The notes under the pieces: generated by a model
Databases searched by the model: none
Told to the model about the DNA's origin: nothing
What the model saw: the letters and a program-made list of their open reading frames with translations, nothing else
Program-made: the position numbers and the translations under genes
Assembly (NCBI GenBank): GCA_021790005.1
Contig: JAJYIP010000001.1
Span: 1-50,622, forward strand
Origin: a bacterium
GTDB lineage: Bacteria > Patescibacteriota > Saccharimonadia > Saccharimonadales > UBA4665
Direction: 5' to 3'
Length of the DNA: 50,622 nucleotides
Shown: piece after piece, positions 8,736-16,634 of the stretch
Position numbering within the stretch: the first letter of the stretch is position 1
How the letters are laid out: each line of letters starts with the position of its first letter

Positions 8736-10853
8736 ATGAATCAGTTGAGTAGGCATAGAAGTAGGGGTGGCAGGATTTCCTTTCGGGTACTCAGTTTAAT
8801 TCTGGTCTTGTTGGTAATCGGAATTGCTATCTGGGCTTATTCCATGTTGTCTTCTAAGAATAGTTCATCAAACAAATCTATAAGTTCTAAGCCTGGTTCG
8901 ACTTTAAACTCTTCGGCAACAGATAAGCAGCTAGCGGCTGCCGAGTCCGGTATATTGCCGTGGCAGTTAAGTGCACCCTTAAGCCGTATGGCAGTCTTCC
9001 CTGGGCAGAATAGCAATCAATTGGTAATTGCCGGAGGTCTAACCGGAGCCGGACGGTCAGCCAGTGGGATTTATACACTTGATACCTCGAATGGTAATCT
9101 TGCTATGACCGGTACATTACCTACACCAGTCCATGATTCGGCTAGTGCTATGCTGGGAAGTTCATATGGAATGTTTGGCGGGGGCAATACCAGCTCAGTC
9201 GGTAGTGTTAATGTCTTTAGTCTAAATGGTGCTTCGCTTAGTAGCGGCAGTTTGCCTCAGGCCAGATCTGACGGAGTTGCGGTTAATGTTAACAACAAGG
9301 TATATATAATCGGTGGCTATAATGGTGCCACCGGCGATGCCCAGGTTCTCTATACGACCGATGGCAAAAGCTTTACTAAGTCTGCTAATTTACCAATTGC
9401 AGTCAGATATGCGGCGGTGGCATCATCTGGCAGTCTAATTTACGTATTTGGTGGTGAAGCTACCAGCGGACCTAATGCCGGTAATCCAATTAACGCAGTA
9501 CAAGTAATTAATACGGCCAATAATACAGCTAGTGTATCTGCCATTAAATTACCCGTACCGCTTGAGGGTGCATCAGCTTTTGTGATTAATGGTGAAATAT
9601 TTTTAGCCGGCGGTCAGAGCTCGGTTCCGGAGTCGATTACACCCGGAGTTGGTACGACTCAAGTTCCGGGCGTAACGGTTGCCAGCCAATCAGATACATA
9701 TAATACGATTTGGGCGGTAGATACGGTCTCAAATAAGGTGCTTAATGCCGGCACGCTTCAGCTTCCAATTGCTTATGCCGGTATGGCCGTGTTAGGGTCT
9801 AGGGCTTGGTTGATCGGAGGTGAGTACAATGGAACGGTAGTTAGTTCCGTTCAGATGGTTACCCCGAACAGCGCTTTTGGTATTGCCGGCCAACCCGGTG
9901 CCGGATCGCCCTATTATGGTGCGAAACTGATGATTGCTGACCGAGGCAATAACCGAGTGATTGTTATGAATTCAAGTATGCAAATCACTTGGCAATACCC
10001 AGCAGCCAATACTAACACCAAGGCGGCGGGAGGTTTTTATTTCCCCGATGATGCTTTCTTTGCTAATCATGGTACGGCTATAATTTCAAATCAAGAAAAC
10101 AACAATACTATAGTTGAAATAGGCTATCCTTCCGGTAAAGTGTTATGGACGTATGGTCATCCTTTGCAGGCCGGCTCAGCTAATGGCTATTTAAACGCGC
10201 CTGACGATGCGTACGTGCTTAAGAATAACGAGGTCGTGGTAGCGGATGATGTAAATTGTCGGGTGTTGTTTATTGATCAGGCTACCAAGCAAATTGTCAG
10301 TCAGATAGGTACGACGGGAGTTTGTACGCACAATCCTAACGTCTCGCTCGGTGCTGTTAACGGTGACACTCCACTTTATGATGGCAATGTGCTGTTATCT
10401 GAGATCCGTGGCTCGTGGGTTAGTGAATACACGCCACAAGGAAAAATGGTCTGGACGGTACAATTACCAATATCCTATCCATCTGATCCGCAACAGTTAG
10501 GCGCTGGTCCTGGATTAAATCCTGACAAATATTTAATTGCCGATTATTCTAATCCGGGAGCAATTCTTGAGTTTACAAGGGAAGGTAAAGTGCTCTACAG
10601 ATACCAAGTAACATCCGGCACTGGGATGCTTAAATACCCATCATTGGTGGAACTGTTGCCGAGTGGAGTATTTATGGCGAACGATGATCACCGCGATCGT
10701 ATGGTAGCCATCGATCCCAGCACTAACGCACTGGTTTGGCAATACGGCGTCACAGATCAGCCCGGTAATACCACAGGCATGGTACATAAACCGGATGGCT
10801 TTGATATTCTTCTACCTAACGGAACAACCCCAACTCACGGCGCTACCAATTAA
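8736..10853 (+). CDS. membrane-anchored protein with two beta-propellers (Kelch-like then NHL/PQQ-like)
   Basis: An Arg-rich N-terminus and one membrane helix at about residues 17-38 anchor it facing outward, followed by a Ser/Asn linker. Residues about 80-385 contain repeated Kelch-like blades: KVYIIGGYNG, LIYVFGGEA, EIFLAGGQ, AWLIGGEYNG, each after a Gly-rich strand. Residues about 395-690 are a second repeat set of the NHL/PQQ type: MIADRGNNRVIVMN, EVVVADDVNCRVLFID, LIADYSNPGAILEF and VWQYG repeats. It has no catalytic motif I can name. GGGGAGAG precedes the ATG by 8 nt. A surface binding or adhesion role is inference only. Confidence 0.8.
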   Translation: MNQLSRHRSRGGRISFRVLSLILVLLVIGIAIWAYSMLSSKNSSSNKSISSKPGSTLNSSATDKQLAAAESGILPWQLSAPLSRMAVFPGQNSNQLVIAGGLTGAGRSASGIYTLDTSNGNLAMTGTLPTPVHDSASAMLGSSYGMFGGGNTSSVGSVNVFSLNGASLSSGSLPQARSDGVAVNVNNKVYIIGGYNGATGDAQVLYTTDGKSFTKSANLPIAVRYAAVASSGSLIYVFGGEATSGPNAGNPINAVQVINTANNTASVSAIKLPVPLEGASAFVINGEIFLAGGQSSVPESITPGVGTTQVPGVTVASQSDTYNTIWAVDTVSNKVLNAGTLQLPIAYAGMAVLGSRAWLIGGEYNGTVVSSVQMVTPNSAFGIAGQPGAGSPYYGAKLMIADRGNNRVIVMNSSMQITWQYPAANTNTKAAGGFYFPDDAFFANHGTAIISNQENNNTIVEIGYPSGKVLWTYGHPLQAGSANGYLNAPDDAYVLKNNEVVVADDVNCRVLFIDQATKQIVSQIGTTGVCTHNPNVSLGAVNGDTPLYDGNVLLSEIRGSWVSEYTPQGKMVWTVQLPISYPSDPQQLGAGPGLNPDKYLIADYSNPGAILEFTREGKVLYRYQVTSGTGMLKYPSLVELLPSGVFMANDDHRDRMVAIDPSTNALVWQYGVTDQPGNTTGMVHKPDGFDILLPNGTTPTHGATN

Positions 10854-12500: not shown

Positions 12501-12562
12501 ATTGGCCGGGATTATGGTCCTATTTTCGAACTTTGACGTTTGTTATTGATCCAACGTCACTA
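12501..12562 (+). repeat. degenerate direct repeat B, downstream of the aldo-keto reductase
   Basis: ATTGGCCGGGATTATGGTCC then TATTTTCGAACTTTGACG and TTATTGATCCAACGTCACTAG. It aligns with repeat A at 11433-11495. Together they flank the reductase gene. Confidence 0.4.
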
Positions 12563-12576
12563 GCTAGAGTTAAGCT

Positions 12577-13014
12577 CTACTGGCTAGTTCGGTTAAATAA
12601 CGCTACTAGCTGACTTCTTTCGTCCTCAGATACAAACTTAACCCTGTTATCTATTATTTCTTCTAGAGTAAGCCATTTATGATTGGCGTGTTCGTCTGAA
12701 AGTTCAATATCGCCACTAATGTACTGACATTTAAAAAATATTGCTGCAATGTAATTAGTCTTCTCGTCTTTATCGTACTGACGTTTCGACACGAACAATG
12801 TCTGCCCGATTTCGATGGATACTTGTTCGCCAAGCTCCTCGGCCACCTCGCGCTTTAGTGCTTCGGTCCAAGGCAAGTCACGTTCAGATTCGTCGACACG
12901 ACCGCCTGGAAAGTCGAGGTAGCCATCTGCAGTAATAAGTACGAGTATCCGTTTGTCTTTAAAAAGCAGAGCTTTGGTGGTTATCTGGTATAGGGCATGG
13001 TTATACAGAGACAT
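12577..13014 (-). CDS. Nudix hydrolase
   Basis: Hydrolyses a nucleoside diphosphate linked to another group. The Nudix box is present as GGRVDESE followed by REVAEELGE, with three extra residues between the first Glu and the REVAEE helix compared with the strict Gx5Ex7REUxEExGU spacing. At 145 residues it is a typical single-domain Nudix protein. TATTAT lies 6 nt before its ATG on the minus strand, another possible leaderless start. The end of the gene overlaps an imperfect hairpin (12559-12588). The substrate cannot be predicted from sequence. Confidence 0.88.
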   Translation of the reverse strand: MSLYNHALYQITTKALLFKDKRILVLITADGYLDFPGGRVDESERDLPWTEALKREVAEELGEQVSIEIGQTLFVSKRQYDKDEKTNYIAAIFFKCQYISGDIELSDEHANHKWLTLEEIIDNRVKFVSEDERSQLVALFNRTSQ

Positions 13015-13082
13015 TTGTTAATAATATGACAAAAAGTCTTATGTAGCCAATCGGTGTATCGGTACATATTGTTGACACGAGT

Positions 13083-13099
13083 TATAATAAGATTATAAT
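13083..13099 (+). promoter_or_regulatory. two tandem -10 boxes before the AbrB-Doc operon
   Basis: TATAAT occurs at 13083-13088 and again at 13094-13099. The second ends 7 nt before the ATG at 13107, so a transcript from it would be leaderless. Two boxes 11 bp apart may reflect autoregulation by the AbrB-type antitoxin. Confidence 0.5.
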
Positions 13100-13106
13100 T
13101 GGAAAT

Positions 13107-13325
13107 ATGATTGAAACGGAACAAAAACTCATACAAATCGGGTCCAGTGAAGGCATCACGCTATCTAAAAAGGATTTAGCTCGTCTCGGCGCTAAGCGTG
13201 GAGATTTCTTGCGTGTTCGGGTCGAGTTGGTGAATGATAAAGCGAAACACAGTAAACTACTGCAAGAGTACGACGAGTTTGTTGAAAAGTACGGCCAGAC
13301 TCTAAAAAACCTTGCCGATAAATGA
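13107..13325 (+). CDS. AbrB/MazE-type antitoxin of the Doc toxin
   Basis: 72 residues. The N-terminal half has the swapped-hairpin AbrB (SpoVT) pattern: KLIQIGSSEGITLSKKDLARLGAKRGDFLRV is spread over residues 6-37, with the usual IG-S-GI-L-K, L-L-GD spacing. The charged C-terminal half (QEYDEFVEKYGQTLKNL) would bind the toxin. It overlaps the start of the Doc gene by 4 bp (ATGA), typical of a toxin-antitoxin operon. It should bind its own promoter. Doc toxins classically pair with Phd, so an AbrB-type partner is a less common combination. Confidence 0.82.
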   Translation: MIETEQKLIQIGSSEGITLSKKDLARLGAKRGDFLRVRVELVNDKAKHSKLLQEYDEFVEKYGQTLKNLADK

Positions 13326-13705
13326 GTGTTAAATACTTAAGTCTTGAAGAGATTCTTAGGTTACACTTTCAGCTTGTAGAAGATTTTGGTGGATCCCATG
13401 GCGTACGAGATGAGAGACGATTAATCTCAGTTGTTGGAGCTCCAAAACTCGAAGCATTTGGAGTAGAGCAATACCCATCTATTTATGATAAAGCTGCAGT
13501 TTATTTTCGGAATATTATTGGCGATCATCCGTTTGTAGATGGTAATAAGCGTAGCGCAGTAACTGTTTACGGCATTTTTTTACGTCGTAACGACAAGCGG
13601 CTTACAGCTTCTCAAAAAGAACTCGAAGACTTCACGCTGAGAGCGGCCAACGAACATTTAGAAATAACAGAAATTGCGGAGTGGCTTAAGGGCCATACTA
13701 GATAA
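13322..13705 (+). CDS. doc: Doc-type toxin (Fic/Doc family)
   Basis: Doc kinases phosphorylate elongation factor Tu and stop translation. The protein has 127 residues, the length of phage P1 Doc. It carries the family motif HPFVDGNKR at residues 69-77 with the His, Asp, Lys and Arg intact, and the Doc-like start YLSLEEILRLH and GVRDERRL. No damage is visible, so it is probably active. It is translationally coupled to the preceding antitoxin and ends 278 bp before the promoter of a second toxin-antitoxin pair. Confidence 0.92.
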   Translation: MSVKYLSLEEILRLHFQLVEDFGGSHGVRDERRLISVVGAPKLEAFGVEQYPSIYDKAAVYFRNIIGDHPFVDGNKRSAVTVYGIFLRRNDKRLTASQKELEDFTLRAANEHLEITEIAEWLKGHTR

Positions 13706-13983
13706 TCTAAGTTGAGAAGATTGTAGGTATGGTTTGAAATCTTACCAAAGAGTTACTTATGGCTAAACGTGGATTAAAACCCTCGCTCAATGCATGTACT
13801 ACGATTACATAATTGCAAATCAAAAATATCTACAGCATTGAACTCGTATAATCATAAACAACCTGGCTGAGCATACCGGTTAAGAACCTTTTCGTCTTAC
13901 GTTCACTATGTTTCTAAACAAGTTTCTCAATATTGTCCACAGCTTGCTAGACCGAAAAAAAACTTCAATTTATCGGGTTTGGC
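13706..13983 (+). other. intergenic region between the two toxin-antitoxin operons
   Basis: Holds repeat copy C1 (13865-13904). A 17-codon frame at 13759 (MAKRGLKPSL...) is too short to support. No RNA gene recognised. Confidence 0.4.
13865..13904 (+). repeat. 40-bp repeat copy C1
   Basis: GGCTGAGCATACCGGT starts this copy, and TTTTCGT follows 8 nt after it. It matches 15307-15346 at 32 of 40 positions with no gap. The two copies flank the MazE/MazF operon and a coiled-coil ORF in direct orientation. Confidence 0.6.
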
Positions 13984-14013
13984 TTGACAGATAATTATCA
14001 ATGTAAGTATAAT
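13984..14013 (+). promoter_or_regulatory. consensus promoter of the MazE/MazF operon
   Basis: Perfect TTGACA at 13984-13989 and perfect TATAAT at 14008-14013, separated by 18 bp. The start of transcription is predicted near 14020, 3 nt before the ATG at 14023. The TTG inside the -35 box is also an in-frame start codon and could mislead gene callers. Confidence 0.85.
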
Positions 14014-14022
14014 GTAATTACT

Positions 14023-14262
14023 ATGAAAGCAGCAATTATTAATATAGGCAACTCAAAAGGCGTTCGTATACCAAAACCTTTATTAGAAGAAAGTGGCTTG
14101 ATTGACAATGTAGAAATTAAACTCGTAAAAGATGGTCTAAAAATTACTCCAGTCAAAAAGAAAGAGCCCAAAATTAGCGATACTTTGCTTATGAGTCAAC
14201 AGGCTCTTGCAAAAGAATGGGATACACCAGAGGAAGATGAGGCATGGGCATTTTTGCAGTAG
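14023..14262 (+). CDS. mazE: MazE-type antitoxin (AbrB/SpoVT domain)
   Basis: 79 residues from the ATG at 14023. The longer frame from TTG 13984 is rejected because that codon is the -35 box. The N-terminal domain AAIINIGNSKGVRIPKPLLEE is the classical MazE/AbrB DNA-binding hairpin (I-IGNSKG-RIPK-L), within residues 3-23. The acidic tail TPEEDEAW would fill the MazF active groove. The 3' end overlaps mazF by 19 bp, so the two are translationally coupled. Autorepression of the consensus promoter is expected for this family. Confidence 0.92.
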   Translation: MKAAIINIGNSKGVRIPKPLLEESGLIDNVEIKLVKDGLKITPVKKKEPKISDTLLMSQQALAKEWDTPEEDEAWAFLQ

Positions 14263-14576
14263 GGGATGTGGTTATATTACCTTTTCCGTTCTCAGATTTA
14301 TCTAGTAAAAAACTCCGCCCTGCAGTAGTAGTCGCTAGGGCAGACTTTAATGATCTAATATTCTGCCAGATTACATCAAAAGACCGTTCTGAGAATGGTG
14401 CAATAAAATTAACTCTCGATAACTTTGATAGCGGCAGGCTTAATTTAATAAGTTACGCAAGACCAGATAAGCTTTTTACTGGCGATGCATCGATAATTGT
14501 AAATACTTATGGCAAGTTAAATGACGTAACAAAGCAAGATTTGCTCGACTCAATAATGCAATTATTCAAATATTAA
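14244..14576 (+). CDS. mazF: MazF/PemK-family endoribonuclease toxin
   Basis: 110 residues. The family fold signature is clear: FAVGDVVILPFPFSD, then KKLRPAVVVARAD with the conserved Arg, and FCQITS holding the conserved Thr-Ser. The C-terminal half is ISYARPDKLFTGD and a final helix. MazF toxins cut mRNA at short specific sequences; the cutting site here is unknown. It overlaps the antitoxin by 19 bp. No frameshift or truncation is visible, so it is probably functional. Confidence 0.93.
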   Translation: MGIFAVGDVVILPFPFSDLSSKKLRPAVVVARADFNDLIFCQITSKDRSENGAIKLTLDNFDSGRLNLISYARPDKLFTGDASIIVNTYGKLNDVTKQDLLDSIMQLFKY

Positions 14577-14612
14577 ATTATCTCGTGGCTGAGTACGTAG
14601 TAATAAAAAAAT

Positions 14613-14887
14613 ATGAGTAAATCGTCTAAGTCATGGACTATATATAGTATTCTTCCTCAACATCTACAAAAGCAGGTCTTTAAACGTCTTCGTCTCTCAT
14701 GGCTGGCTATGCGTCCCACAGTTGGAACCCCTTCTTAGAAGTTGTGTTGGTTTAGTGAATGGATTAGAGGAACTAAGTTTTAGGGTACAAAGGGGTTGGG
14801 TAGTTATTGTCCAATTAGAGGAAGAAGTCTAGATATGAGATACTCAACAAGATATACAAAAGCCGGTACAGATTCCTCGCAGGCATA
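14613..14887 (+). pseudogene. possible decayed coding sequence
   Basis: ATG at 14613 opens a 41-codon frame (SILPQHLQKQVFKRLRLSWLAMR) ending in TAG. The same frame continues to 14887 with only one more internal stop (SEWIRG, then LDMRYSTRYTKAGTDSSQA). A neighbouring frame reads LVNGLEELSFRVQRGWVVI. No family is recognised. It could be an interrupted gene or chance. Confidence 0.25.
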
Positions 14888-14962
14888 GTTTGCTCTTATT
14901 CTTCTGCTATCAAGTGCTGCTTAGTATATGCAGCTCTGGAAAGAGATATGATCTAGCATGAA

Positions 14963-14971
14963 TGGTATAAT
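14963..14971 (+). promoter_or_regulatory. extended -10 promoter, strictly leaderless type
   Basis: TGG-TATAAT at 14963-14971 ends 6 nt before the ATG at 14978, so transcription should start on the A of the start codon. Confidence 0.6.
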
Positions 14972-14977
14972 AAAATT

Positions 14978-15253
14978 ATGAGTGAATCAGCAACAAGAGA
15001 CGACATTGATGAAGTTATAAATATAGTAAAAGACTTTATGGCTCAGGTAGACATTAGGTTTACTCATATTGAGTCAGAGATTTCAGAGCTAAAAGTCTCA
15101 CATTATAAGTTATTGAATACTATAGATAGTTTTATTTCTAGAATAGATAAATATGAGACCGAATTGGCTGCTAGAGATGCCCAGTTTGAAAGACTACTGG
15201 ATTGGGCTAGGAAAGTTTCTATAAAAACAGGCATCCCACTAGAAGATCTTTAA
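14978..15253 (+). CDS. small coiled-coil protein
   Basis: 91 residues, almost wholly heptad-like helix: DDIDEVINIVKDFM, then FTHIESEISELK, LLNTIDSFISRIDKYETELAARD, and a C-terminal ARKVSIKTGIPLEDL. From memory, short proteins with this order (IxxFxxRIDxYExExAARDxQxxRLxxW and an amphipathic end with KTGI/V) are common in Patescibacteria, function unknown. There is no membrane segment. It sits between the MazEF operon and repeat copy C2, and may be cargo of the same cassette. A similar small coiled coil lies at 37775. Confidence 0.7.
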   Translation: MSESATRDDIDEVINIVKDFMAQVDIRFTHIESEISELKVSHYKLLNTIDSFISRIDKYETELAARDAQFERLLDWARKVSIKTGIPLEDL

Positions 15254-15398
15254 GAAATTAGCAATAAACACTAAATTGAAATTCTATATTGAATACCGGT
15301 TAAATGGGCTGAGCATACCGGTCAGAAAGCTTTTCGTACTTTGTTCGTACTAATCCTAAAAACCTAGACTTTACGGACTTTCATGCTGTACGTATCAT
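15254..15398 (+). other. intergenic region downstream of tRNA-Gln, with repeat C2
   Basis: Apart from repeat C2 (15307-15346) nothing was recognised. A partial second copy of the core, ATACCGGTTA, occurs at 15294-15303 directly before C2. Confidence 0.4.
15307..15346 (+). repeat. 40-bp repeat copy C2
   Basis: GGCTGAGCATACCGGT then CAGAAAGC, TTTTCGT and TTGTTC. It matches C1 (13865-13904) at 32 of 40 positions. It lies 53 bp beyond the 3' end of tRNA-Gln, a usual neighbourhood for integrated DNA. Confidence 0.6.
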
Positions 15399-15472
15399 TG
15401 GCTGGGGATGAGGGATTCGAACCCCCGATCCTGGGACCAGAACCCAGTGCCTTACCGCTTGGCCAATCCCCA
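15399..15472 (-). tRNA. tRNA-Gln (anticodon CUG), CCA encoded
   Basis: The minus strand folds as a full cloverleaf. Acceptor TGGGGAT pairs with ATCCCCA. The D arm is GCC/GGC. The anticodon arm is CTGGG-TTCTGGT-CCCAG with CTG at positions 34-36. The T arm has the GTTCGAAT loop. The discriminator is G and CCA is encoded at 15401-15399. It decodes CAG. The U1-A72 first pair is the known GatCAB recognition feature of bacterial tRNA-Gln, and gatCAB lies in the same window. A possible -10, TAGACT, ends 8 nt upstream. Confidence 0.96.
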
Positions 15473-15578
15473 ATAGTGACAGTCTAAACTAAGTTAGCAC
15501 AAATAATTTTTTTCTAAAAGGATATATAGGGTGTTTTGCTTTTAAAACTATCTATTAATTTTTTGATCATAATCGTAT

Positions 15579-15584
15579 TACAAT
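15579..15584 (+). promoter_or_regulatory. -10 box, leaderless type
   Basis: TACAAT ends 7 nt before the ATG at 15592 and no Shine-Dalgarno lies between. Confidence 0.45.
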
Positions 15585-15591
15585 AGCTAAA

Positions 15592-16566
15592 ATGAATTTT
15601 GTTAAGAAAATTTATCAACTAATACTCAAGTCTCTAAACTATAAAAAGGTAAAACTGGTAATATTTTCAATCCTCATTCTAATAATTATTGGGTTTGGTG
15701 TATTCGCCCTCTACTATGCCGTCTCTGGTTATAATAAGACAAAATCTAATTATGGTGCAACGTCTAACCAGCAAACTACAAACGGTACGGCTGCTCAGTC
15801 AGGTAACCCGTCAAATAGTTCATCAGCTAATCAATCGTCAAATTTGTGGCTTATAGCGTCGTCAGCTGTTGGCTACATAAACCAAGCCGAAGGCAGTAGT
15901 AACTTTACCAATAGTATTTTTAACTTTTCCTATGACTATGAAATAACCACACCCCACATATCTGGCGGCAATCTACTGTCTCATGCCACTAAAGTTATGA
16001 GCTATAAAAGCTATGCTCAATTCCAAGCCGATGCTTACTCTCACAGCCTACCCTCTGGCTATCCGGTTATGATGTACGACAATGAAGACTGGTCATACAC
16101 GCCGATCAACGAACAGCAAAACCCAATACTGTATTACCGGCAATTTGGTCAGTTGGCTCATAGCTTGGGCTATCACGTACTGGCAACGCCGGCTGCCGAC
16201 TTAACGAAAGTTTTATTGCCCAAGACAGATAACTACAGCGGTTATTTAAAGCTGGGCCTGGCTAAAACGGCACAGTTTGCGGATATATTTAACATCCAAG
16301 CGCAGAATACGACTAATGCCCAGTCGTACATTTCATTTGTAGTGTCCGCTATTGCTCAGATTAAACAGGTAAACCCTAAGGCGATCATACTGGCTGGGTT
16401 AACCGTTAAGATTAATGGTCCTTCTTTGGCTACTTTAGAAAAAGAGTATAACGGAACTAAAAATTTAGTTAATGGTTATTGGCTAAACGTAATAAGCCAC
16501 ACGCCTTCAGATAATATCTATGTGGGTAATTTGGCTCACGAATTTCTAATAGCAGTTAAGGCTTAA
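15592..16566 (+). CDS. membrane-anchored extracytoplasmic protein, possible TIM-barrel hydrolase
   Basis: A Lys-rich N-terminus and one membrane helix at about residues 21-44 are followed by a Ser/Asn/Gln linker (to about 83) and a globular domain to residue 324. The domain has strand-like segments spaced as in an alpha/beta barrel. These include PVMMYDNEDWSYTP with acidic residues, LGYHVLATPAADL, ADIFNIQAQ and PKAIILAGLTV. This resembles uncharacterised glycosidase-like barrels. I cannot assign catalytic residues with confidence. It is a single-gene unit between tRNA-Gln and the dienelactone hydrolase. Confidence 0.7.
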   Translation: MNFVKKIYQLILKSLNYKKVKLVIFSILILIIIGFGVFALYYAVSGYNKTKSNYGATSNQQTTNGTAAQSGNPSNSSSANQSSNLWLIASSAVGYINQAEGSSNFTNSIFNFSYDYEITTPHISGGNLLSHATKVMSYKSYAQFQADAYSHSLPSGYPVMMYDNEDWSYTPINEQQNPILYYRQFGQLAHSLGYHVLATPAADLTKVLLPKTDNYSGYLKLGLAKTAQFADIFNIQAQNTTNAQSYISFVVSAIAQIKQVNPKAIILAGLTVKINGPSLATLEKEYNGTKNLVNGYWLNVISHTPSDNIYVGNLAHEFLIAVKA

Positions 16567-16589
16567 AGAATTTTCAAGCAGTTTGGCGT

Positions 16590-16595
16590 TATACT
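16590..16595 (+). promoter_or_regulatory. -10 box of the dienelactone hydrolase gene
   Basis: TATACT at 16590-16595. It leaves a leader of about 32 nt containing GGAG at 16620-16623 ahead of the ATG at 16635. Confidence 0.45.
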
Positions 16596-16634
16596 AAACT
16601 ATAGCTAGATCAAACTAAGCGGAGTAGATAACTA

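Follow-up and report, generated by a model that had tools for sequence, protein, structure and literature searches.

The window analyzed here is a stretch of 50,622 bp (contig C20, positions 1-50622) of a 724-kb draft genome of the Patescibacteria, here named G000 (38 contigs, 87% complete). The subject of this study is a putative array of small gene modules within the window, which is located next to a tRNA-Gln(CTG) gene and includes two toxin-antitoxin operons. The open reading frame (ORF) list and ARAGORN confirmed the gene order given in an initial annotation of this DNA, namely AbrB-Doc, MazEF, a broken frame, a coiled-coil ORF, repeats and the tRNA gene. The 317 bp stated there as the distance between both pairs were found again from the Doc stop to the mazE start, and the repeat was real as well (pair 13865-13904 and 15307-15346, 80% over 40 nt). 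From the tRNA gene outward the following features were assigned:

15399..15472, minus strand: tRNA-Gln(CTG), detected by ARAGORN
15399-15423, minus strand: putative attachment core a (anchor), the last 25 nt of tRNA-Gln(CTG)
15307..15398, minus strand: cargo-less spacer of 92 bp, from the tRNA core to the first b core
15307..15344, minus strand: putative attachment core b, copy 1 (profile match, E=1.5e-9)
14700..15306, minus strand: putative module 1, coiled-coil ORF and non-coding DNA, with a tRNA-end-like site at ~14729-14700
14978..15253, plus strand: coiled-coil ORF of 91 amino acids, with relatives inside modules of genomes G092 and G012
13864..14699, minus strand: putative module 2, MazEF, bounded by GCCA on both sides
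14613..14738, plus strand: "decayed frame", the start of a small membrane protein fused to the C-terminal tail of a large serine integrase
13864..13901, minus strand: putative attachment core b, copy 2 (profile match, E=3.7e-10; pattern match with 1 mismatch)
13762..13863, minus strand: spacer of 102 bp with an inferred boundary, ending in a degenerate site (...TTTAGCCA)
13063..13761, minus strand: putative module 3, AbrB-Doc, lower edge approximate (13063-13072)
12507..13060, minus strand: putative module 4, NUDIX hydrolase (ORF 12577-13014, minus strand), with a degenerate site at ~12536-12507

The b cores and position 14700 are firm edges; the edges at 13762, 13063 and 12507 are the positions where relatives stop matching. 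For module 1, core b defines the right edge, and the left edge is the position where homology with G083 ends. Its coiled-coil ORF had no Pfam match above cut-off, and its relative in G092 forms a module of a single gene flanked by b cores on both sides. The tail of the decayed frame reaches the module boundary at 14700. Module 3 shared 74% DNA identity with G026 (13072-13762), where the AbrB-Doc homology stops at 13762, and 67% with G012 (13072-13688). Module 4 shared 86.5% with G001 (12502-13060), where the NUDIX module is located directly behind a tRNA-end copy, and 83% with G008 (12583-13059). The a...b unit was also present in G007, G014, G012, G004 and others, at other places. The region had initially been described as more AT-rich than its flanks. 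This holds for the toxin-antitoxin and coiled-coil modules, with 35.5-39.6% GC compared to 43.1% on the left and 45.7% beyond 16600; however, the gene past the tRNA (15473-16600) is AT-rich too (38.0% GC).

The 40-bp repeats lie on the tRNA-Gln strand and resemble its last 25 bases, including GGTTC, an AT step and the final CAGCC(A). The consensus of core b was GGTTC-N8-CATNCTCAGCCA. A profile built on it found 55 copies in 852 kb (77 fetched sequences, partly chosen because they carried the motif) and 0 in the reversed control; therefore, the similarity of the repeats is not due to chance. Of 93 family genomes, 16 carried the core-b pattern (27 places), as did 21 of 379 from a sample of the whole phylum (39 places); the reversed pattern gave no hit in either set. 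An exact copy of core a was found in 14 of 19 genomes of the genus, and copies outside of tRNAs bound modules in G001 and G018. In G001 the tRNA 3' end recurs without mismatch beyond a VapBC operon, and the adjoining NUDIX gene is an 86% relative of the one in the window. In contig C66 of G018 a copy with one mismatch is located past a HAD-hydrolase gene.

Some other candidates were rejected. A genome-wide repeat family of G000 does not apply, since only two copies were present there and the 16-base core was found nowhere else in the genome. Phages as carriers were discarded, as viral contigs contained no exact match to the core-b pattern. A core-b match in a metagenome-assembled genome (MAG) of the Clostridiales (L302) falls inside a coding region, has neither a tRNA nor neighbours and was taken as chance. 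Separately, the same block of tRNA-Gln, a short ORF and core b was present in MAGs labelled Nitrospirae (L298) and Armatimonadetes (L301), which come from one sampling site and may be mislabelled as to host; this hints that the attachment sites may extend beyond Patescibacteria.

Across Patescibacteria the sites recur in a fixed orientation, are anchored at tRNA-Gln and mark the starts and stops of homology. Neighbouring sites within 3.5 kb were on the same strand in 48 of 49 pairs and on opposite strands in one. Within 20 kb of tRNA-Gln, 39 b cores were located downstream on the same strand, none upstream and one in opposite orientation (two sequences being represented twice). For other tRNAs the respective numbers were 23, 0 and 6, and 21 of these 23 belong to one tRNA cluster beyond tRNA-Gln in L341. 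We also analyzed eight regions of distant families, chosen by core b alone from a part of the core-bearing regions of the 379-genome pattern search. Seven of them carried a tRNA-Gln (CTG or TTG) on the same strand 0.5-7.2 kb upstream; the exception, G327:C13, had no tRNA-Gln in 16 kb. One of the eight contained six sites in 3.9 kb. Since loci were often fetched for a site or for a Doc or MazF relative, densities are biased, the direction and anchor counts less so.

The sites coincide with the ends of homology between genomes. When homology blocks (high-scoring segment pairs of at least 150 bp) met a non-tRNA site, 26 of 29 ended inside it (reciprocal pairs counted twice), compared to 42 of 518 (~8%; range 1/47 to 12/61) at eight shifted control positions. 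This count replaces an earlier one of 1006/1013 endpoints, a figure inflated by conserved full tRNA genes.

Whole modules are common to different genera at high DNA identity, with unrelated flanks. The MazEF module of the window (13864-14706) matched contig C63 of G083, a member of another genus, in 831 of 843 columns (98.6% DNA identity). The match runs from CCAGCCA to CTCAGCCA (CTTAGCCA in G083), and the flanks are unrelated on both sides. From 13864 on, the module was 93.6% identical to G013 of the same genus. The housekeeping protein RarA, however, shares only 69% of its amino acids between G000 and G013, and this difference supports acquisition of the module. Further examples were a VapBC module of 769 bp from site to site (94.9% identity between G001 and G080) and a 2.8-kb block that was 99.9% identical in G013 and G092 and ended at a site in both. 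Within the genus, the flank of the tRNA that faces away from the island (DLH-RarA-MPG) was conserved, whereas the DNA following the tRNA differed in each readable genome.

The block had initially been interpreted as an acquired island. Acquisition is supported, but a single island was ruled out by the module edges and by the separate relatives of each piece; the modules would rather represent several separate acquisitions. A related locus with the tRNA intact and the toxin-antitoxin genes missing had been suggested as a check, and G018:C66, the nearest relative with synteny that was found (RarA 83%), resembles it: here the intact tRNA-Gln is followed by the HAD-hydrolase module, without toxin-antitoxin genes. 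A strict empty site could be built for the neighbouring VapBC case, where G004 carries directly on tRNA-Gln the arm that is located beyond the second site in G001, but not for the modules of the window. Conserved synteny of the whole block, which would have argued against acquisition, was not seen in relatives. However, AbrB-Doc followed by MazEF was also adjacent in G007:C1, with identities of 66% (Doc) and 53% (MazF). Because of this same order, the pairing may be older than the rest of the array.

Two observations concern the loci of relatives. Three complete tRNA-Gln(CTG) genes were present in genome G007, and the cargo behind them differed from gene to gene (L228, L229, L051). In G001 (L126 11327-12571) a protein of about nine near-identical 33-residue repeats was encoded after the NUDIX module. 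Additionally, a conserved promoter-like and tRNA-like module (GCGAGTCGTnAAAATnCGATGGTaATAT...GGTTCGAATCCC), which may be transcribed, was present at or just upstream of several tRNA-end copies:

L126, ~9684-9773
L047, 8100-8205, 8240-8330 and 10670-10773
L055, 1200-1307
L256, 6876-6985
L254, 846-955

Tandem islands of Dehalococcoides likewise carry a tRNA-like RNA (PMC3146451).

The 88 ORFs located between sites were rich in toxin-antitoxin families in Pfam (Fic/Doc 6, MazE 5, PemK 4, ParE 4, RHH 4, HicB 4, PIN 3) and also included NUDIX, HAD and glycosyltransferase genes. In 88 ORFs away from sites no toxin-antitoxin family was present among the first 25 Pfam families listed; this set does contain one MazEF pair from G025. 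The two sets differ in ORF length (median 110 and 220 amino acids, respectively) and include spurious ORFs.

Serine integrases (PF00239) were matched in 16 of 19 family genomes (all but one or two of the 19 with sites). A check of the tRNA-Gln neighbourhood, which covered part of these matches, found nine integrases at tRNA-Gln in seven of the 19 genomes (G012, G035, G094, G087 and G007 with two each, G008 and G089), at positions from overlapping the tRNA to 3.4 kb away. All eight that were tested showed Resolvase, Recombinase and zinc-ribbon domains (E<=0.001; zinc ribbon under cut-off in two) in proteins of 400-600 amino acids. In a second set from other families PF00239 matches were present in 19 of 25 genomes. 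Three of the 20 integrase ORFs examined from these families were located at tRNA-Gln, one (G327:C10) reads into a b core, eight were located at other tRNAs and eight had neither in the stretch fetched.

One integrase of G087 reads through tRNA-Gln, and the 3' end of its gene matched the decayed frame of the window over 61 bp (78.7%, E 1e-8). The tail of the decayed frame also matched L255 and L248 over 40-53 bp. An integrase tail is present in one module of the window (MazEF); in the other modules none was found. Besides, two different serine integrases (L373, 17638 region, G205:C4, and L374, 5180 region, G442:C32) end in the same site (GTTCGAACTTGTTCCCCGATGAACAGCCA). Both sequences diverge directly past GCCA, which fits a crossover there. 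The serine-integrase elements at tRNA-Gln in L229 (G007:C21) and L140 (G008:C48) contained large helicase-like and methyltransferase-like ORFs, which, named by eye, look like restriction-modification or defence genes.

Based on these data, 12507-15398 probably consists of four or more small mobile modules, which are arranged in tandem behind the 3' end of tRNA-Gln(CTG) and for which serine integrases are the presumed joiners in trans. On the tRNA strand each module would terminate in a site that resembles the tRNA-Gln 3' end and has (C)AGCCA, intact or decayed, as its last bases. The coiled-coil ORF, MazEF, AbrB-Doc and NUDIX modules, in this order from the tRNA outward, would have been acquired independently. 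Site copies at both module ends in the orientation of the target 3' end, as expected for accretion at a tRNA, were found, some of those in the window being degenerate. Joining would be catalyzed by the large serine integrases of larger elements at the same tRNA-Gln 3' end, which presumably act in trans on modules without an integrase but with sites at both ends. Such modules may be carried in trans, or they may be remnants of serine-integrase elements; the MazEF module seems to retain the last codons of such an integrase. Toxin-antitoxin pairs would be frequent as cargo because they resist loss after integration. Since no serine integrase was found in G000 (87% complete), its array may be dormant, or may await an integrase from outside.

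A broader proposal is tentative and has, in our view, slightly less than an even chance: Patescibacteria may share an integron-like capture system, in which both tRNA-Gln genes serve as platform, a conserved second type of site marks each cassette, and serine integrases of passing elements act in trans to shuffle cassettes of one gene or one toxin-antitoxin pair across genera and even across classes.

Several points weigh against the array of integrase-joined modules. The sites at 15306, 13762, ~13063 and 12507 are degenerate and depend on homology edges, and the one pair of neighbouring b cores in opposite orientation (L256) does not fit. No PF00239 match was found in the b-core genomes G000, G004, G061, G450, G299, G476 and G184, and in distant families a sequence search of the stretches fetched revealed no serine integrase near the array heads. 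General recombination could also move some longer shared stretches (2.8 and 5.1 kb). Furthermore, all named genomes are MAGs, related mine samples are the source of some shared modules, and G018 seems to be a mixed bin, as several RarA and Xer-like copies suggest more than one organism.

Four other explanations were considered. General recombination after transformation is a live rival: the modules would move by natural uptake and homologous recombination between short sites or tRNA-Gln copies, without any site-specific enzyme. Competence genes are abundant in Patescibacteria, and natural transformation has been reported for one Saccharibacterium (PMC11665869). Several array genomes without any PF00239 match and site units of up to ~100 bp are also in line with this. 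Nevertheless, we consider it unlikely, since many sites share just 25-40 bp of imperfect identity, which is little for RecA-type recombination, since homology halts at a site at both module ends with unrelated flanks, and since serine integrases are located exactly at the same target, one of them reading into a b core. Somewhat less likely still is an unrelated recombinase, such as the Xer-like tyrosine recombinase of the genus or another, which would build the arrays while the serine-integrase elements merely share the tRNA. PF00589 tyrosine recombinases were present in 14 of 19 genomes of the genus, and the array heads of distant families lacked a nearby serine integrase. However, tyrosine-recombinase ORFs of the genus type occurred in none of the site-bearing loci examined, G013 has arrays yet no PF00589 match, and the sites look nothing like a dif site.

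Chimeric joins at short repeats during assembly or binning would have to recur in one direction and at one anchor. The sites were found in independent projects and also within contigs as long as 504 kb (G012) and 460 kb (G248). We regard such an artefact as highly improbable, even though the genomes are MAGs, six contigs of the genus end less than 400 bp from the tRNA-Gln 3' end and some of the sharing genomes come from neighbouring mine samples. The least probable explanation is an ordinary, vertically inherited toxin-antitoxin cluster with terminators or regulatory elements as repeats. The common order of AbrB-Doc and MazEF in G007:C1 would agree with it, but not the MazEF identity of 98.6% to another genus with unrelated flanks, compared to 69% for RarA within the genus. 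Terminators were rejected, as no terminator call overlaps the b cores.

The toxin-antitoxin genes of modules 2 and 3 and their predicted promoters are as follows:

13072..13099, plus strand: predicted abrB-doc promoter, TTGACA-16-TATAAT (12/12 match)
13107..13325, plus strand: AbrB-like antitoxin (TIGR02609 30.9 bits, below the cut-off of 55.9), 4-bp overlap with doc
13322..13705, plus strand: Doc toxin (TIGR01550 72.2 bits, PF02661 58.8 bits)
13984..14013, plus strand: predicted mazEF promoter, TTGACA-18-TATAAT (12/12 match)
14023..14262, plus strand: MazE antitoxin (PF04014 24.0 bits, just under the cut-off of 24.7)
14244..14576, plus strand: MazF/PemK toxin (PF02452 37.7 bits, above cut-off)

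Both toxins had been described as apparently intact, and they do look so in our analysis. Doc and MazF matched their families, and Doc carries an intact Fic motif, HPFVDGNKRSA (HPFxxGNKR type). Doc forms an operon with its antitoxin, and a MazE-like antitoxin is located upstream of MazF. Both antitoxins are weak by profile, and their naming leans also on their place in overlapping operons. In comparison to G013, omega was 0.33 for MazE and 0.30 for MazF (few changes); for Doc it was 0.05 in comparison to G026 (synonymous change near saturation). This close Doc relative in G026 (L054 548-925) shows DPF...NKH instead of HPF...NKR and, to judge by its motif, may be inactive. Each toxin operon has its own perfect sigma-70 promoter match, and these are the only perfect (12/12) matches of the region. 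They coincide with the sites that had been suggested for antitoxin binding (13083-13099 and 13984-14013). In operon layout, families and motifs both pairs correspond to type II toxin-antitoxin systems (Doc/AbrB-like, MazEF). The toxin-antitoxin genes themselves are ordinary; the novelty is the vehicle.

To our knowledge, gene gain by Patescibacteria with their tiny genomes is poorly understood. An oriented cassette array on tRNA-Gln would be a concrete route for it. It would account for the clustering of toxin-antitoxin genes there and mark a hypervariable site readable in any genome. If integrases work on these sites, they would provide a means of gene insertion for bacteria that have few genetic tools.

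Integrons and clusters of attC sites lacking integron-integrases (CALIN) are oriented head-to-tail arrays of small, toxin-antitoxin-rich modules anchored at one place, and their attC sites carry RYYYAAC and GTTRRRY cores. The array described here shares the oriented head-to-tail arrangement, the small toxin-antitoxin-rich modules and the single anchor. However, its anchor is a tRNA gene, core b lacks both attC cores (compared by eye with the attC consensus), and no IntI-type integrase was seen at the array head, as judged from the site-bearing loci, none of which contained ORFs like the tyrosine recombinases of the genus.

By analogy, the closest known system appears to be the ssrA islands of Dehalococcoides with the recombinase DsiB. 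There, multiple tandem islands are located downstream of ssrA, each delimited by a short repeat of the gene 3' end; a serine recombinase of 540 residues is encoded by attL on the reverse strand, and the integration module is kept in just 16 of 31 islands (PMC3146451). Both systems are tandem, located on the 3' side of an RNA gene, delimited by 3'-end-like repeats and often without integrase. A large serine recombinase beside the target on the opposite strand was found in our relatives, but not in G000. Here, the target is tRNA-Gln (CTG, TTG) instead of ssrA, the modules often consist of one gene or one toxin-antitoxin operon of less than 1 kb, the hosts are Patescibacteria, and a second, non-tRNA type of site (core b) recurs across families. 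The array is also CIME-like. cis-Mobilizable elements (CIMEs), as reviewed in PMC5704250, keep attL and attR, have lost the integrase, accrete in tandem and derive from conjugative or mobilizable elements. Integrase-less modules with sites at both ends gather at a target gene here too, and the MazEF module keeps an integrase tail.

According to a figure legend in the same source, serine recombinases have their targets within genes and tyrosine recombinases at gene ends (PMC5704250). The 2014 Islander paper states that no serine integrases with tRNA genes as targets were known (PMC4383910). This rule is affected by our results, since many serine integrases were located at tRNA 3' ends. As in the tRNA-integrated islands described in that paper, a 3' fragment of the tRNA marks the far end of the island. 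Searches of open-licence papers, without preprints, revealed no title or abstract describing such arrays in Patescibacteria, which is weak evidence of novelty. What sets the array apart from these systems is the use of both tRNA-Gln genes as anchor, a cargo of cassette size with many toxin-antitoxin pairs, a second type of site common to different families and the presence of serine integrases at tRNA 3' ends.

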